DNA of 38,987 nucleotides from a virus, in IMG/VR virus record IMGVR_UViG_3300044712_001434, positions 1 to 38,987 of that record, one strand, 5' to 3'. Shown one piece after another: positions 2,179 to 38,987 of this stretch. How positions within the stretch are numbered: the first letter of the stretch is position 1; every line of letters starts with the position of its first letter. A program made the translations under genes and the position numbers. The notes beneath the pieces were generated by a model. The model was not told where the DNA came from, did not search any database, and saw nothing but the letters and a program-made list of their open reading frames with translations.

Positions 2179-2937
2179 GCATATCCGTTTCATTTTCTTG
2201 AGAGCATCGCCATCATGGACCCAGTCCTGGAAAAGAGCCATGCTGCGGACAAGCTTACGCATTGGTTCGGGAGCGTGCAGGCGCCTTGCTCGTATTTCGC
2301 CATCAAGCCATACCCAAGGTATTATTTTATAATATGTAGGCGTACCACCTCGCCCTGGCCCAGCTTTTGTCTGCAAGTAAAAATCCGGCTCTGTGCCGAA
2401 TGCCTCTCGAAATTGAGACAGGGTTATTCCGTTTAGAGATTTTGACGATACGCCGAGCAGCTCAAGTCGATCCTTGATGCCCAATAACCCACCGCGATTG
2501 AGCTTCTTCGCAATCCAATCTCTCGGCATAAGGCCGGCATGAGCCAACAAGAATTGATAGTCGCTAGCGGTCCATGGTTTTTTATTTCGCTGATCTTTGA
2601 ATTTGGGCGGGAGTAGGCCGGACCTTCTCGATGTTTCGAGAATCCCAATCGTTTGACCATGGGAGATTTTGAATTTCTCGGCGGTCTCTCTTGCGTTGTG
2701 ATTGCGAAAGTACGCTATGACCTTCTTTCGAAATTCATCGGAATATTTCTTGTTCCACTTTCCATATACTTTCGAAGAAGCCGTATTCTTGATTCCAAAT
2801 TTTCTAAGCCGATACGATATGGAATAGGGAGATCGGCCCAGCTTCTCGGCGATTTCTTTATTCAGAAAATTACCAGTTTTGACCAGGAGAAAAAGCTCTC
2901 GGTCCTGATCCTGAGTCCATCCGTAATTAGCGCTCAT
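2173..2937 (-). CDS. Large HTH DNA-binding protein, 254 aa
   Basis: The N-terminus (residues about 5-50) reads GWTQDQDRELFLLVKTGNF, then NKEIAEKLGRSPYSISYRLRKFG, a clear Myb/SANT or GcrA-like helix-turn-helix. A second HTH-like part follows, with ETAEKFKISHGQTIGIL (about 80-100). A third W-rich repeat comes next (PWTASDYQFLLAHAGLMPRDWIAKKLNR, about 118-145, quoted in part). The C-terminal 90 residues are of unknown fold. Several DNA-reading modules in a row suggest a transcription regulator. The ATG at 2937 has no clear Shine-Dalgarno and overlaps the upstream stop by 11 bases, so it is probably coupled. It is the last gene of the leftward regulatory operon. Confidence 0.75.
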   Translation of the reverse strand: MSANYGWTQDQDRELFLLVKTGNFLNKEIAEKLGRSPYSISYRLRKFGIKNTASSKVYGKWNKKYSDEFRKKVIAYFRNHNARETAEKFKISHGQTIGILETSRRSGLLPPKFKDQRNKKPWTASDYQFLLAHAGLMPRDWIAKKLNRGGLLGIKDRLELLGVSSKSLNGITLSQFREAFGTEPDFYLQTKAGPGRGGTPTYYKIIPWVWLDGEIRARRLHAPEPMRKLVRSMALFQDWVHDGDALKKMKRICR

Positions 2938-3184
2938 TCAAAAACTTTGCAGCCTGGATTGCGGTGTTGATCGTTTCATTCAGGCGAGCCACGCAGTTGC
3001 ACGCGGCGTTCACGGTGTTGTGGTCGAGCTTTTCTTTTGTCACCGATTTCATCATGTGATGGAGGTGGTCGAGTGTTTCGCCAACTTTGAAATGCTCGTT
3101 CACGAACATGATCTTATCCTCCTGTGTTTTTCCCACGACTTGTGTTTGGCGCGCTCCTTGAGTCAGTTGGCGTGATTCAGACAC
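2927..3184 (-). CDS. Small helical protein, 85 aa
   Basis: A strong ribosome-binding site, AAGGAGG, followed by CTATC sits just before a GTG at 3184, so this start is preferred. An ATG at 3205, overlapping the upstream stop, would add seven residues. The protein is helical, with HLHHMMKSV and a C-terminal helix NAACNCVARLNETINTAIQA. No family was recognised. In the same operon as the sigma-like and LuxR-like genes, it could be a partner or anti-factor, which is inference only. Confidence 0.65.
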   Translation of the reverse strand: MSESRQLTQGARQTQVVGKTQEDKIMFVNEHFKVGETLDHLHHMMKSVTKEKLDHNTVNAACNCVARLNETINTAIQAAKFLNER

Positions 3185-3204: not shown

Positions 3205-3615
3205 TTAGATGCTACATTCTAAATATGCGAGGTAGATACTTTTGATCTCCTCTTTATTCCGCGCAAGCCCGACGATTTGATCGATGAGATTCAAGGCGCT
3301 TGTAATCTCCGAACGCATCTCCATATCGTCTCCATGGACCCCGATAAAGTCAGCAAGTGTAGCGTCGCTGTCATCTTTAACCGGCTTATCGAGACTTATG
3401 GATCGTTCGCTTAGAGTTTTTGCCGAAACTCTGCCGCGATCGCCATAGCCTTGAATCCTGAGCCAGTCGTAAAAACAGTATTCCCAACTGGCTTTCTCAT
3501 TCTCAAATACGCGCATGGCGACATATTGAACAGCATCATCGAGCTCATGGTGTAAGGCCGGGATTAGGTGATCACGAACAAACCACTTAATCTTATCATA
3601 GGTTTTCTGATCCAT
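3205..3615 (-). CDS. Sigma-factor-like protein without region 4, 136 aa
   Basis: The N-terminal half (about residues 10-60) looks like a sigma region 2 helix bundle: DDAVQYVAMRVFENEKASW, then YCFYDWLRIQG. This is followed by KTLSERSISLDKPVKDDSDA and TLADFIG, very like the SLDxPV...LxDxI linker that joins regions 2/3 to region 4 in sigma-70 family factors. The expected C-terminal region-4 HTH is missing: only about 45 residues follow, and they show no HTH. The stop (TAA) overlaps the alternative ATG of the next gene. The gene directly upstream encodes a free-standing LuxR-type HTH. This could be a degraded sigma factor, or one half of a two-protein factor. Confidence 0.6.
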   Translation of the reverse strand: MDQKTYDKIKWFVRDHLIPALHHELDDAVQYVAMRVFENEKASWEYCFYDWLRIQGYGDRGRVSAKTLSERSISLDKPVKDDSDATLADFIGVHGDDMEMRSEITSALNLIDQIVGLARNKEEIKSIYLAYLECSI

Positions 3616-3640
3616 GATTCATCGCGCGAGCTCCGCGGTG

Positions 3641-3925
3641 TTAAGCGGCCTGTCCGACTGGTAGTTCCGGTTTCGGCGCTGGCGCCTCTTCGATTATCGG
3701 TTCGTGACCTTTCGGTAAAAGGCCAATGAACTTTACAATCAGCTGTGCGCGCGATTTCACCTCAACCTTTCTGTAGATGTTCGTCAGGTGGAACTTGACC
3801 GTTTTCTCAGTCACAAACAGCTTGTCCGCGACTTCTTGATTGGTCTGGCCTTTGATGACGTGCTCAACCACTTCGGCTTCGCGGCTCGAGCAGTGGTACT
3901 TCGTGGTGAGTTCTTGGCGCAGCAT
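3641..3925 (-). CDS. LuxR/GerE-type HTH regulator, 94 aa
   Basis: Almost the whole protein is one GerE DNA-binding domain: SSREAEVVEHVIKGQTNQEVADKLFVTEKTVKFHLTNIYRKV (residues about 12-54, quoted in part), including the diagnostic ET-VKFHL-NIY-K recognition helix. A Pro/Glu-rich tail follows. There is no receiver or autoinducer domain, so it is a stand-alone regulator like some phage late activators. A strong AAGGAGG lies five bases before the ATG at 3925. It sits directly upstream of the sigma-like gene. The domain call is certain; the target promoters are unknown. Confidence 0.85.
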   Translation of the reverse strand: MLRQELTTKYHCSSREAEVVEHVIKGQTNQEVADKLFVTEKTVKFHLTNIYRKVEVKSRAQLIVKFIGLLPKGHEPIIEEAPAPKPELPVGQAA

Positions 3926-3969: not shown

Positions 3970-4197
3970 TTACGCGGCATCCGTTCCGCGTTTTAGTTTC
4001 GTTTTTTGAAATTTAGTTTCTAATGGCAGGCGATCCTTCAGGATCGAGCGAATAATATCTGCTGCGCTTTCTCTTCCTTCGAGCGCGATCAACTGATCGA
4101 TGTAGTCTCGCAACTCTTGATCGCACCGCATGGAATAGTGGCAGGGGAATTTGATATTGCTCTTGGACTCAGTCGTTGTGTCTTCGAGTTTTTGCAT
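3970..4197 (-). CDS. Ribbon-helix-helix (CopG/Arc-type) DNA-binding protein, 75 aa
   Basis: The core HYSMRCDQELRDYIDQLIAL then GRESAADIIRSILKDRL fits a ribbon-helix-helix fold: a short strand with alternating residues, helix A, a turn, then helix B. The tail is basic (KTKLKRG). The ATG at 4197 is chosen; a TTG at 4245 would add 16 residues of unlikely sequence. It is the first gene of the leftward operon. A GTATAC-TTGA-GTATAC palindrome about 50 bases upstream is a natural candidate for its operator. Autoregulation is inference. Confidence 0.7.
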   Translation of the reverse strand: MQKLEDTTTESKSNIKFPCHYSMRCDQELRDYIDQLIALEGRESAADIIRSILKDRLPLETKFQKTKLKRGTDAA

Positions 4198-4245
4198 GAG
4201 CTCATTAGAGTATAACCAATGACCAGTCCGCAAGGGGGTCAACAA

Positions 4246-4261
4246 GTATACTTGAGTATAC
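4246..4261. promoter_or_regulatory. Candidate operator between the divergent regulatory and late operons
   Basis: Two copies of the self-complementary hexamer GTATAC are separated by TTGA. A further AGTATA sits at 4209-4214. The site lies in the 138-base divergent gap between the leftward RHH gene (start 4197) and the rightward late operon (start 4336). Closely spaced palindromic half-sites are typical of RHH protein binding. The AGTATA strings also read as TATACT, a good -10 element, on the minus strand, but no well-spaced -35 was found. The rest of the gap holds an AACTGAA/TTCAGTT inverted repeat at 4288-4309. Confidence 0.45.
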
Positions 4262-4335: not shown

Positions 4336-4587
4336 ATGGATGCTTCAAGGCTGCTGACTTTCTTCAAACGAAAATTCGCACGACCAAGAACGGTGGTGGT
4401 CATTACAGCCGGACCGAACCTCATTCTTGCGCCTCATGGATTCAGCGAGCCAATCGTAAATGGAATCAAAGGACTCTGGTGCGCAGGTCTTTCGCCAAAC
4501 GAGATTGCGCGTGCATACGGCATGAGCGAAGTCGTCGTTCGAAAGATCCTGAAGCGCGTGATGCCTAAATACGGACGAATCATGTGA
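4336..4587 (+). CDS. Small HTH protein at head of late operon, 83 aa
   Basis: The C-terminal half contains GIKGLWCAGLSPNEIARAYG then MSEVVVRKILKRVMPKYG, a helix-turn-helix of the resolvase/homeodomain-like kind used for short DNA-binding proteins. The N-terminus (MDASRLLTFFKRKFARPR) is basic. It is the first gene after the divergent control region, so it may be a late regulator or part of the packaging apparatus. No enzyme motif is present. Overlapping frames are not credible as coding. Confidence 0.65.
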   Translation: MDASRLLTFFKRKFARPRTVVVITAGPNLILAPHGFSEPIVNGIKGLWCAGLSPNEIARAYGMSEVVVRKILKRVMPKYGRIM

Positions 4588-4603
4588 GCCAGGAGGGCGC
4601 TGC

Positions 4604-4783
4604 GTGTGTCGATCACGAAAGAGAGACAAGGCAAGGGAACGACGTCGATGTGGACCGAAGAGGATTGCAAAGAGTCCTGTTCAATGCCTGAGCTGCGGCG
4701 AAACGTTTCAGTCGCCGGATCGGCGGCTCATCCGAATCTGCACCAACTGCAAGAAACTCGATCGGTGGAGATTTGCGGCTTGA
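4604..4783 (+). CDS. Short zinc-finger protein, 59 aa
   Basis: Translation from GTG 4604 gives an Arg/Lys-rich N-terminus followed by CLSCGETFQSPDRRLIRICT and NCKK. This is a four-cysteine (CxxC...CxxC) zinc ribbon like those of many short phage and bacterial proteins. AGGAGG (4591-4596) lies seven bases before the GTG, the best ribosome site in this area. A longer frame (4606-4794) on the same bases lacks the Cys pattern and is rejected. It probably binds nucleic acid; its role is unknown. It precedes the packaging genes. Confidence 0.7.
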   Translation: MCRSRKRDKARERRRCGPKRIAKSPVQCLSCGETFQSPDRRLIRICTNCKKLDRWRFAA

Positions 4784-4836: not shown

Positions 4837-5052
4837 ATGAAGTTTTTTGTAGTCCTTATTTTTCTTGCCTGGATTTGTGCGGCGATCGCGATCTCGATCA
4901 AGGGTCTGATCTTGGCGTTCTCTGCTTCGATCATACTTGGCCTGATTGCGTTGGTCATCCAACCACTTCCATTTGTGATCGGGATCATTGGAATCTTCGG
5001 CCGATCTGATCTTTGCGAAGTGGTGGCGCAATGGCTGAATTTACCCATGTGA
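4837..5052 (+). CDS. Small membrane protein, 71 aa
   Basis: GGAGGAG (4824-4830) positions the ATG at 4837 as the start; the ATG at 4822 lies upstream of that site and is rejected. The protein is nearly all hydrophobic, with spans at about residues 2-24 and 28-52, and a short polar end (RSDLCEVVAQWLNLPM). It could be a two-helix inner-membrane protein. Its place just ahead of the terminase genes does not fit a lysis role well. Function unknown. Confidence 0.6.
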   Translation: MKFFVVLIFLAWICAAIAISIKGLILAFSASIILGLIALVIQPLPFVIGIIGIFGRSDLCEVVAQWLNLPM

Positions 5053-5060
5053 GGTTTGCC

Positions 5061-5246
5061 ATGACCGAAAGACCAAAGCCGATCACGTCGAGCTATATGG
5101 CAGGCAAAGAGCGATACGACCAGGGATATCGGGATGGCGTCGAGAGTGGGCGAATTCAAGTGATCGTATTTCTCGTAGGACTGCTTGGTTTGGCGTGGCT
5201 GCTTTACTGTTTCGTCGCGGCTGTGGCGACTTCTGTCTGCAAGTGA
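5061..5246 (+). CDS. Small single-pass membrane protein, 61 aa
   Basis: The start is ATG 5061 with GAGG nine bases upstream; earlier in-frame starts (5013) overlap the previous gene and have no ribosome site. The polar N-terminal half contains KERYDQGYRDGVESGR. One strong transmembrane segment follows, IQVIVFLVGLLGLAWLLYCF. The topology suggests an N-in anchored protein. It is next to the previous membrane gene and could act with it. Function unknown. Confidence 0.6.
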   Translation: MTERPKPITSSYMAGKERYDQGYRDGVESGRIQVIVFLVGLLGLAWLLYCFVAAVATSVCK

Positions 5247-5260
5247 ATCAGAGGTGATCA

Positions 5261-5662
5261 ATGGCGATCGGCAAAAAGACAGGCGGGCGAGACTTTAAGC
5301 CGGGACAGGTTGCAAACCCGAACGGACGTCCGATTGTTCCTGAAGAGATCAAGGAACTCCGAAAGCTCAACCGCTCCGAGATCGAACAGCTGATCAGCGA
5401 CTTTATGAGAAAGCCGCTGCATGAGCTTCAAGCCATGTCAAAGAACCCGGCGACCACAGCGCTTGATCGCATGATCGCGAGCGTGGTCGAGCAGGCGGTG
5501 TTCCGCGGTGATCATAAGCGTCTCAACTTCCTTCTTGATCGACTCATCGGCAAGGTGCCTGACCGCCTGGCGGATGCGGATGGGCAACCCATAGTACAGA
5601 CATTTGTGGACCTGATTCGAATCGCCGCTGAGTCAAAAGCCAAGGAAGGAAAACAGGAGTGA
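5261..5662 (+). CDS. DUF5681-type protein, probable terminase small subunit, 133 aa
   Basis: The N-terminal motif GGRDFKPGQVANPNGRP is the hallmark of DUF5681, a family found next to phage terminase large subunits. The rest is helical and basic (LRKLNRSEIEQLISDFMRK and later HKRLNFLLDRLIGKVPDRL). The gene ends four bases into the TerL gene (GTGA overlap). A TerS role, recognising phage DNA for packaging, is inferred from position and family; no classical TerS HTH is obvious. Confidence 0.7.
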   Translation: MAIGKKTGGRDFKPGQVANPNGRPIVPEEIKELRKLNRSEIEQLISDFMRKPLHELQAMSKNPATTALDRMIASVVEQAVFRGDHKRLNFLLDRLIGKVPDRLADADGQPIVQTFVDLIRIAAESKAKEGKQE

Positions 5663-7275
5663 CACCGGAAGAGGCAGCACTCCTGGCGGAGCGATATCAG
5701 CAAGACCCGGTTGCTCACTTGATGGAGGTTCAGGGTGTCGAGTCACTCGAGGATTATCAGCGCGATAAGATCCTTCTTCCTATCTGGCGTAACGAGCGCG
5801 TCGCTGTGCGGGCATGTCATAACGTCGGGAAGACTTGGACTATCGCCAAGGCTGTTCTGGCCATCGGATCAACCTTCACTCGTTCCAAGATTATCACCAC
5901 CGCACCGACATTCACTCAGGTCGAAAAGCTTCTCTGGAGCGAGATTCGAGCGGGACATCGGCGATCTAAAATTCCACTCGGTGGGCGCATGCTTAACGTG
6001 GAGTGGAAGATCGAAGATGATTGGTTCGCGCTCGGAGTCAGTCCGGATGACGGCTCTGAAAGCTCGGACGGATCTCAAGGTGGCACATCAAGTTTCCAGG
6101 GGTATCACAGCGCTGAGGGTCTCGTCGCAATTGTCTTTGACGAGGCCACGGGGGTAAGCGCAAAGCGGTGGATCCAGGCCGAGGGTATGATGACGCAGCC
6201 GCGAGTGAAGTGGATAGCGATCGGGAACCCGACGTCGCCATCGTCGCCGTTCGCTCAGTGTTTCAAAGATCCGGCTTGGTTCAAGTCGCACATCTCATGC
6301 TTCGATTCGCCGAACCTTAAGGCGAACAACTTCAACAATGTCGATGATATTCGAATCGAGGTTGCCTATCTCCGAACTCTTACTGATGCCGAGATCTTGA
6401 GGCGCCTCAACTCGTATAAGAACGTGAACCCGTATCTGCTTACTGCGAAATGGGTGGTAGCACTTGCGCTCAGGCGTGGCGTCGACTCGGCGGTCTTTAT
6501 TTCGAAAGCGCTTGGCGATTTCCCGGATGAGGATGAACACGTTCTGATTCCTCTCTCAAAGGTCGATGCGGCTCAGCGACGCACGTATGAACCAAAACCA
6601 GAGGATGGCCGATACATCGGCGTTGACGTCGCACGCTACGGAATGGATGAGACGATCATCACACGAATCGAAGGTTGGTCCACAACCGAGCGGCGGGTGA
6701 TTTCGAAGCGCGCGACTACTGAGGTGGTCGGCGAGATCATCGTGATGATCACAGCACTTCCTCGCAGGCAGATCGAGGTTATCGTAATTGACGGCACCGG
6801 CATTGGAGCTGGTGTCGTTGACCAGCTCCGCGAGCGCGTGCGAGACGGCGTTCTACCGCCGCACATTAAGATCGTCGAAGTGAACTTTGGCGAGACGGCG
6901 GATGACGAAGTGGGCCCGAAGGAAGTCGCGGAGAAAAAGCCGTCTGAGCGATACGTGAACCGCAAGGCCCAGATGTTCGATCTTCTCGCAACTGACATCG
7001 GCGAGCTCACGCTGCCCCCGGATACCGTTTATCAAGAAGAACTGCCGGCGATTCAGTACAAGTACGACTCGAAGGGTCGGATGAAGATTGAATCAAAAGA
7101 CGAATTCAAATCAAGAACGGGCCTTGGCTCCCCCGATACGGCGGACTCAACGGCCCTTGCCAATTTCGGTCGGCATGTTACCGCTCGAGTTGGCAGTTTC
7201 ACCGAAGCAATGAAGCTCGCGGCCGAGCGCTCAAGCCCGATCGCGTCTAGCCTTAAATCAGGAGATAAGTGGTGA
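5659..7275 (+). CDS. Terminase large subunit (TerL), 538 aa
   Basis: This is the DNA-packaging motor ATPase and headful nuclease. The Walker A-like loop ACHNVGKT is at residues 52-59. The TAPT coupling motif is at 81-84. Walker B VAIVFDE is at 156-162. The C-terminal RNase H-fold nuclease has its acidic residues in YIGVDVARYG (D323), IEVIVIDGTG (D378) and GSPDTADS (D493/D496). The Gly residues of the A loop vary from the classical form, as in other TerL proteins. GTG start overlapping the upstream stop. The length is normal for the family. Confidence 0.95.
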   Translation: MTPEEAALLAERYQQDPVAHLMEVQGVESLEDYQRDKILLPIWRNERVAVRACHNVGKTWTIAKAVLAIGSTFTRSKIITTAPTFTQVEKLLWSEIRAGHRRSKIPLGGRMLNVEWKIEDDWFALGVSPDDGSESSDGSQGGTSSFQGYHSAEGLVAIVFDEATGVSAKRWIQAEGMMTQPRVKWIAIGNPTSPSSPFAQCFKDPAWFKSHISCFDSPNLKANNFNNVDDIRIEVAYLRTLTDAEILRRLNSYKNVNPYLLTAKWVVALALRRGVDSAVFISKALGDFPDEDEHVLIPLSKVDAAQRRTYEPKPEDGRYIGVDVARYGMDETIITRIEGWSTTERRVISKRATTEVVGEIIVMITALPRRQIEVIVIDGTGIGAGVVDQLRERVRDGVLPPHIKIVEVNFGETADDEVGPKEVAEKKPSERYVNRKAQMFDLLATDIGELTLPPDTVYQEELPAIQYKYDSKGRMKIESKDEFKSRTGLGSPDTADSTALANFGRHVTARVGSFTEAMKLAAERSSPIASSLKSGDKW

Positions 7276-36014: not shown

Positions 36015-36164
36015 CCTGTCGACAGGTCGCGACCATCGTCGATGATTGTCGACAGATGCAGTGCGCCGTCTTCTAAAAGTTTGTCTACCAATCTGTCTAC
36101 CTGCCGACCGGCCCGCTTGAGCGGCATCGGATCGATTGTTTTTCCTGCCTTCCTATCCGTCTAC
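36015..36164. repeat. Arm-type repeats on the far side of attP
   Basis: TGTCGAC occurs at 36017-36023 (inside the palindrome CCTGTCGACAGG) and 36047-36053. The variant TGTCTAC is at 36082-36088 and 36094-36100, with CGTCTAC at 36158-36164. With the pair at 35836-35853 they flank the tRNA-like core. The rest of the 404-base gap between int and the next gene (35795-36198) holds no convincing gene. Confidence 0.55.
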
Positions 36165-36198
36165 CTCAGTTCCGCATCACGCGCCGTGGAGGTTCGTC

Positions 36199-37188
36199 AT
36201 GGCCAGGTTTGATAACGGCTGGATCGCGGTCTCGCGCGACATGGCTTTCGGCGATATCGCGCAGCGCGGGCCAGATACTCTGTGGGTATGGGTCCGAATT
36301 CTCACCATGGCCAACTGGAAGGAGTCTTCGGCCTACCTCAAGGGGCAGCAGCTCAGGCTTCAGCCGGGTCAGCTCGTGACCGGCCTCGCTGAATTGGCCG
36401 GCGACCACCTATCAATCAAAGCTGTCCGAAACGCGCTTTCCTACCTGGAGAGAACTGGTCGAATTGGGCAAGCAGCGGGCAACCACGGTCGCGTCATAAC
36501 TATCTGTAACTGGGAGAAATATCAGAACCCAGATTTTGATGAGACAAGCAACGGGCAAGCAACGGGCAAGCAAGGGGCAAGCAACGGGCAACATAGTGAA
36601 CAAGGAACCATTAACAAAATAACTTCTGCTTCTGCGGCAACGCCGCAGGTGCGGAAGCGGAAGGTTTCGCCAGAGGTTCTTCAGGCCACAAGTATCGACC
36701 AGGTGCTGACCTCGATCTCTCTCGAGCAGATTTCGACATGGAGCAAGCTTTACCCCGACGAGGAGTTTCGCAAGCGCACGGCGCTTCGGGCTTGGGAGTA
36801 CTACAAGCGGCCCCGCAACGCGAGAAAGGCCCCAACCACCATCGAATCTTGGATCGCAGTACTCGAGTACTGGTTCAACGAAGATTGGCCGAAGCACGTT
36901 CGCGCGATTCCCGGCGGAAAAGTGGACTCAAAGCCCTCTGCCCGGGCGCCTATTGCGCTCAGTGATCAGGGTGAGGCCTGGGTACAGCAGGTACTCGAGG
37001 CGCGCGCTCAGGGCGGCCTGGGGCTGCAAAATGCGATGCGCGGTATGCCTCCAAAAGTTGCTGAGATGGTTGAGATCAGTTTCGGCACCTGGAGGTCGAT
37101 CCCGACATCAGATGCTGAGCGTGAGATCAGAGCCGCATTTGCAATGCATGAGCGACAGATGCAGTCATCAGAGGCCGTGAGTGCGTAA
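36199..37188 (+). CDS. Replication initiator-like protein with internal iterons, 329 aa
   Basis: The N-terminal 120 residues form a winged-helix part typical of phage O/DnaD-like replication proteins: WIAVSRDMAFGDIAQRGPDT, GQLVTGLAELAGDHLSIKAV, RNALSYLERTGRIG and ITICNWEKYQ. A low-complexity linker (SNGQATGKQGASNGQ) is encoded by the iterons. The C-terminal part has SLEQISTWSKLYPDEEFRKR and a helical end. GGAGG seven bases upstream fixes ATG 36199. It should bind the iterons in its own gene and load host replication enzymes (inference). Confidence 0.75.
   Translation: MARFDNGWIAVSRDMAFGDIAQRGPDTLWVWVRILTMANWKESSAYLKGQQLRLQPGQLVTGLAELAGDHLSIKAVRNALSYLERTGRIGQAAGNHGRVITICNWEKYQNPDFDETSNGQATGKQGASNGQHSEQGTINKITSASAATPQVRKRKVSPEVLQATSIDQVLTSISLEQISTWSKLYPDEEFRKRTALRAWEYYKRPRNARKAPTTIESWIAVLEYWFNEDWPKHVRAIPGGKVDSKPSARAPIALSDQGEAWVQQVLEARAQGGLGLQNAMRGMPPKVAEMVEISFGTWRSIPTSDAEREIRAAFAMHERQMQSSEAVSA
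36547..36590 (+). repeat. ori: Four tandem 11-bp iterons, candidate replication origin
   Basis: AGCAACGGGCA is repeated four times head to tail (36547-36557, 36558-36568, 36569-36579 with one change, 36580-36590). Partial copies lie at about 36468-36489. An AT-rich stretch (ACATAGTGAACAAGGAACCA and on, 36591-36625) follows. The layout of iterons inside the initiator gene with an AT-rich flank is that of the lambda origin. An 11-base period shifts the reading frame each time, so the DNA rather than the protein sequence is conserved. Confidence 0.7.
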
Positions 37189-38695: not shown

Positions 38696-38987
38696 ATGAT
38701 TAAAATTAGGAAAAGTAAAACGGCTGATACTAGAACCTGTGACTGGTCGAAAGTCACAAAAGATGAGCTCCTTGATAGTACGCACTCTCATTTGGATGAC
38801 GTCAGGAAAGGCTTCTATTTTTTCGTCTACCTTATGATCAAACAGCAAGAAAATCACGACCTCACGAAGCTGAGCCACCTTGATGACTTCTACCGGAACT
38901 TTCGGACAGGCTTTAAAGAGCGCGATTGGTGGGATTTACATCAAGAGAAGGAACGTCATCATTTTAATGATCCGAGATTCATCCAAG
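38696..38987 (+). CDS. DUF5662-like phage protein, N-terminal part (gene continues at 1)
   Basis: The gene opens with ATG 38696, one base after the previous stop, and runs off the end in frame with the region 1-266. This part has SHLDDVRKGFYFFVYLMIKQ, QENHDLTKLSHLDDFYRNFR and ERDWWDLHQEKERHHFNDP. NHDLTK plus HQEKERHH is a histidine/aspartate pattern shared by the DUF5662 phage family. The whole gene is about 152 codons when the circle is closed. Enzyme activity is not shown. Confidence 0.8.
   Translation, partial: MIKIRKSKTADTRTCDWSKVTKDELLDSTHSHLDDVRKGFYFFVYLMIKQQENHDLTKLSHLDDFYRNFRTGFKERDWWDLHQEKERHHFNDPRFIQ
38892..38987. repeat. Terminal direct repeat, right copy (circular genome overlap)
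   Basis: These 96 bases are an exact copy of bases 1-96. Removing one copy gives a circle of 38,891 bp in which the gene at 38696 is whole. Confidence 0.95.

Follow-up and report, generated by a model that had tools for sequence, protein, structure and literature searches.

Genomic context of the locus

The stretch of DNA analysed here (hereafter the window) is the whole of the virus record IMGVR_UViG_3300044712_001434, 38,987 bases in length. An exact 96-base direct repeat is found at its two ends (1-96 and 38892-38987), and thus the window probably represents a complete, circularly closed phage genome, though it is handled here as linear. The presence of genes for an integrase, a Cro/C1-type HTH protein, RecT and a YqaJ-type protein makes the phage look temperate. 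Elsewhere in the window, tandem 11-base repeats (CAAGCAACGGG) occur at 36545-36588, within the open reading frame (ORF) at 36136-37188, and could possibly be candidate origin iterons inside a replication gene.

A leftward operon extending from 4245 to 2173 encodes a ribbon-helix-helix candidate, a GerE protein, a sigma-like protein of 136 residues, a protein here named X and a D5-like protein (table 1). The ORFs of the sigma-like and GerE proteins are separated by 25 nt, and the latter is preceded by an AAGGAGG ribosome site. A preliminary description of this DNA had singled out both ORFs and had taken the upstream one for a lone GerE HTH; the positions are correct, both ORFs lie on the minus strand, and the Pfam match makes the GerE assignment clear. 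The same description had a single late operon starting at 4336, which agrees with the structural genes that we find on the plus strand, including a terminase (phrog_2) at 5659 and a Mu-type portal at 7269. Between the divergent operons lies an inverted repeat, GTATACTTGAGTATAC, which overlaps the most upstream start of the ribbon-helix-helix candidate and is possibly an operator. Only two weak matches to the D5-like protein of the window were obtained from isolated phages.

Table 1. Features of the leftward operon and of the adjoining start of the rightward operon in the window.
Feature	Position	Strand	Evidence
D5-like DNA-binding protein, 254 aa	2173..2937	-	phrog_323 'transcriptional regulator, D5-like', 1.1e-14
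Protein X, 85 aa from GTG with AAGGAGG site (92 aa from ATG at 3205)	2927..3184	-	
Sigma-like protein, 136 aa; region 2 at about residues 1-62, region 3.2 linker at about 70-92, no region 4	3205..3615	-	Profile, control and invariant-residue tests; AF2 model
Lone GerE/LuxR HTH, 94 aa, no sensor domain	3641..3925	-	Pfam GerE 2e-19, 69.4 bits against a cut-off of 23.5
Small ribbon-helix-helix candidate, with which the leftward operon opens	3970..4245	-	Weak: Pfam RHH_1 E=0.14 only, below cut-off
Inverted repeat GTATACTTGAGTATAC between the divergent operons	4246..4261	.	Occurs once in the window; chance expectation is zero sites
HTH protein, 83 aa, first gene of the rightward late operon, the proposed target	4336..4587	+	HTH_23 E=0.0011, below cut-off

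Relatives in uncultured phages

Relatives of the sigma-like protein were reached indirectly, through a scan with the GerE core and scans with alignments of the GerE, D5-like and X proteins, followed by a profile search of the records so found. The protein is present in eight uncultured phage records, namely the window, L040, L043, L054, L056, L059, L060 and L069, and our scans of isolated phages and GTDB genomes recovered neither it nor protein X. Among intact members, identity to the protein of the window is 19-31%; the copy in L040 is interrupted by an in-frame TAG and its end is shortened. In five further records (L043, L054, L056, L059 and L069) the sigma-like gene is likewise followed by a relative of the D5-like gene. 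The gene cluster recurs across phages with different terminases, the packaging genes varying from the phrog_2 terminase of the window to Terminase_3 in L040 and others in L043 and L056. Among relatives reached through the terminase, L003 ends before the region, and L004 does not carry the module.

A Sigma70_r4 match over the family cut-off is found in none of the eight records, some of which are fragments. The r4-like match in the phage of L060 proved to be an ordinary Cro/C1-type HTH protein, and a weak match in MT836094 was dropped, as it sits among structural genes. Truncation of the sigma-like gene by assembly error is disfavoured, given that the proteins of the window, L054, L059 and L069 end at similar places and run straight into X or a GerE-X fusion, the broken L040 copy being the exception.

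A sigma homologue without region 4

The preliminary description saw in the 136-residue protein a region-2-like part and the linker of sigma factors. The motif SISLDKPVKDDSDATLADFIG is found in it. Searches with the protein alone gave only a Pfam match to Sigma70_r3 (E=0.14, residues 67-91) and, using phmmer, no useful match in the PDB, so that from one sequence the sigma likeness is near chance level. Across the sigma-like proteins Pfam yielded no sigma domain over cut-off, with Sigma70_r2 falling below its own.

The family as a whole is more informative. When a seven-member profile was compared with all PDB chains, the top two matches were sigma factors, covering region 2.2 and the linker (SigA) in the order that they have in sigma, with E-values of 0.19 and 0.36, neither of them significant singly. 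The region-2 part scored 31.8 against the sigma factors of L039 and L041, and the linker 20.1 against the E. coli sigma factors RpoD, RpoS, RpoH and FliA, while 120 column-shuffled controls reached at most 15.6 and 15.7, respectively; shuffling is a lenient null because it breaks helix periodicity, and with the same sigma profiles real alignments score 10-18 if they have no HTH and 14-46 if they have one. Reversed-sequence controls fail to match the sigma profiles. L039 and L041 are regarded as sigma factors because of their region 4 (matches of 7.6e-13 and 7.9e-6). Against a profile made from E. coli factors only, the region-2 part fell below some of the shuffles, and thus the link to sigma runs via phage sigma factors. 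Both sigma-like segments of the preliminary description were therefore recovered, as seven-member profile segments that exceed every control, but not over cut-off in single-sequence Pfam searches. Its statement that region 4 is missing also stands: the region-4 score of C-terminal residues 97-136 is no better than that of shuffles, and Pfam gives no Sigma70_r4 match in the ORF.

Besides Met1, the only invariant columns of the family are D27 and Q30, which align with two residues of E. coli sigma70 that have a general role in core binding, D403 and Q406 (their numbering was verified). The linker motif SLD..I.D is present in most members. The AlphaFold2 model of the window protein has a confident N-terminal helix set (block means of 83-90 over residues 1-50) and a poor middle, and a Foldseek search with it was weak and uninformative on its own, with sigma chains among the matches. 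The L069 model is of lower confidence (mean pLDDT 59); its fold search has sigma factors at ranks 1, 2, 3 and 5 and in about two thirds of the 50 matches listed, T4 gp55 being among the listed matches, and since all Foldseek E-values are at least 0.2 the evidence lies in the make-up of the match list and in no single match.

Because the region-2 and linker segments of the relatives exceed all shuffled controls, the two invariant residues coincide with D403 and Q406, and the fold list of one relative is mostly composed of sigma factors, these comparisons support the 136-residue protein as a sigma homologue without region 4. Of the features of the sigma-70 family it has region 2 and the region 3.2 linker, and region 4 is absent from the chain; thus we do not class it among complete sigma factors.

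The lone GerE gene and its neighbours

A lone GerE gene lies in the same cluster as the sigma-like gene in seven of the eight records, a proportion biased upward by the six relatives that were reached via their GerE gene. Adjacency of the pair in related phages, raised in the preliminary description, holds in large part: the two genes are adjacent or overlapping in six records, whereas in L056 the GerE gene is upstream with exonuclease-like and small terminase genes in between, and no GerE gene was found in the 39 kb record L069. Four records (the window, L040, L043 and L060) have the GerE gene immediately upstream of the sigma-like one. In L054 and L059 it is directly downstream, with overlapping ORFs, in the order region 2, linker, HTH, which is the domain order of an intact sigma factor. 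A programmed frameshift joining the two ORFs is disfavoured, as their relative frames differ between L054 and L059. In both of these records X is joined to the C-terminal end of GerE, the part in common being 60-70% identical.

Two observations concern the small proteins of these clusters. The GerE-X fusion of L059 (754-1020) contains a site (AAAGGGAG, GTG) like the AAGGAGG/GTG of X in the window (3184), and, to judge from this sequence, X may be made alone as well as fused in that phage. In L069, a 109-aa small HTH-like protein with a very weak match to the Fis-type HTH is encoded at 5260-5589, directly upstream of the region-4-less sigma gene, in the position that GerE would occupy.

Concerning the pairing itself, a sigma-like or full sigma gene was present within 3.5 kb in 9 of 23 loci found through GerE and in 0 of 21 found through the terminase (Fisher p=0.0016, indicative only, as some of these proteins had served to train the detector and several of the terminase loci hardly differ from one another). 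However, lone GerE also accompanies full sigma factors with region 4, being adjacent to one in L038 and in the same stretch in L039 and L041, and in many phages, annotated ones included, it has no neighbouring sigma gene. Thus, GerE is not simply a displaced region 4. The divergence of the GerE and sigma-like proteins is weakly correlated (r=0.31, p=0.07), with no clear co-variation, and a GerE tree gave no resolved branching. The profile of the GerE family can be aligned to sigma region 4 (hhalign probability 92%), a likeness expected anyway between two HTH folds; Pfam gives no Sigma70_r4 match over cut-off in the neighbouring GerE chain. A separate locus, L042, encodes the opposite half of a sigma factor, a 65-aa protein consisting of sigma region 4 only (Pfam 2.3e-5), one gene from a lone GerE (4500-4697 and 4965-5243).

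A proposed two-part initiation factor

The contacts of sigma region 2 are with the beta' clamp helices and with the -10 element, those of region 4 with the flap and with the -35 element (PMC7892883). We put forward, as somewhat better than an even bet, that the phage makes a minimal sigma factor together with a distinct small HTH protein encoded in the same operon, and that these redirect polymerase to phage promoters. The region-2 domain of the 136-residue protein would dock on the host RNA polymerase at the beta' clamp helices and would read a -10-like element, and its region 3.2 segment would reach into the active-site cleft. Having no part of its own with which to read or hold an upstream element, it may leave this to the lone GerE protein, and both proteins would redirect the polymerase to phage promoters, most likely those of the late operon from 4336. 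In the window, L040, L043 and L056, gene position makes the late operon the natural target. In L054 and L069 the integrase is close to the module, a placement that would equally suit a regulator produced early in infection. A two-part initiation factor is the likeliest reading of the locus; core binding, the physical partnership, docking at the flap, late targeting and timing are its conjectural parts.

A stricter form of this explanation has the GerE protein sitting at the place of region 4 on the beta flap tip helix, the two chains rebuilding one sigma factor, as the preliminary description had supposed. The overlapping genes of L054 and L059, in sigma domain order, favour it, as do the alignment of the GerE profile to region 4 and the lack of any other region 4 over cut-off in all eight records. 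Yet GerE proteins of the same type stand beside sigmas that keep region 4 (L038, L039 and L041) or occur with no sigma gene, L069 does without GerE, and the profile likeness is what two HTH folds would give in any case, so that we consider full reconstitution a minority prospect. The occurrence of only one of the two genes, which the preliminary description would have held against the pairing if late control were kept, is thus found in part, as GerE without a sigma gene nearby and as the L069 sigma without GerE. The same distribution could mean that the 136-residue protein acts alone as a gp55-like factor, the GerE protein being a DNA-bound activator or repressor of the ordinary sort that has no more than the operon in common with it. 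T4 gp55 indeed shows that a region-2-only protein is able to initiate (PMC7892883), and GerE does occur alone in other phages; against this stand the adjacent or overlapping genes of six records, in either order, and the sigma genes near 9 of the 23 GerE loci, and we rate this explanation, too, as unlikely.

Still less probable is that the protein is a sigma mimic that does not initiate and that, by occupying the core or by titrating a host anti-sigma factor in the manner of the PhyR sigma-like domain, shifts host transcription. PhyR offers a precedent for a sigma-like domain without initiation (PMC8103513), and the loss of region 4 and the strong divergence would suit such a role, but the residues that have stayed invariant are the core-contact residues of region 2.2, and the linker, for which a pure decoy would have no use, persists in most members. 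Finally, the insignificant single-sequence Pfam and PDB searches would be explained if this were some other sort of helical protein in which a sigma-like stretch had arisen by chance. The family profile tests disfavour chance similarity: independent segments exceed all shuffled and reversed controls, D403 and Q406 are matched, and sigma chains predominate in the fold search, which leaves chance very improbable.

The distribution would fit a history in which GerE was first an activator beside a phage sigma factor and region 4 would have been lost where the separate HTH made it dispensable. A further, speculative proposal, which we think unlikely to hold in full, is that the two phage chains rebuild a sigma factor, with a GerE/LuxR-type HTH at the polymerase flap in place of region 4, and that a group of uncultured phages switches on its late genes with it, the HTH half being exchangeable (L069). 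To our knowledge, only a handful of systems have split sigma factors. A phage module that recurs with a partner of GerE type would illustrate how a regulator HTH and a sigma domain can trade places, and would do so in a small, tractable system, with two proteins of less than 140 residues, one host polymerase and one late operon.

Comparison with known systems

Two known sigma systems offer parallels. In T4, the region-2-type protein gp55 directs initiation, and a second protein can occupy the flap (PMC7892883). As at the present locus, a region-2-only sigma protein is accompanied by a second small protein, gp55 and gp33 serving the late genes (PMC7892883, PMC2988020). However, gp33 has no structural relationship to region 4 and cannot bind DNA on its own, whereas the putative partner in the present case is a GerE HTH; activation of gp55 is by the sliding clamp; and the linker motif SLD..I.D is kept here in most members. 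In SigO-RsoA the halves of a sigma factor are on separate chains (PMC8103513), sigma2 and sigma4 being apart, and two proteins from neighbouring genes are involved, as here. The second chain of SigO-RsoA is a sigma region 4, while that of the phages is a GerE-type HTH, and the interaction has been shown for SigO-RsoA, being putative for the pair described here.

The remaining proteins have known relatives as well. The 94-aa protein is a clear Pfam member of the GerE/LuxR-type HTH regulators, from which it differs in having no sensor or receiver domain and in being encoded beside a sigma-like gene, and the last gene of the leftward operon matches the phage D5-like transcription regulators (phrog_323).
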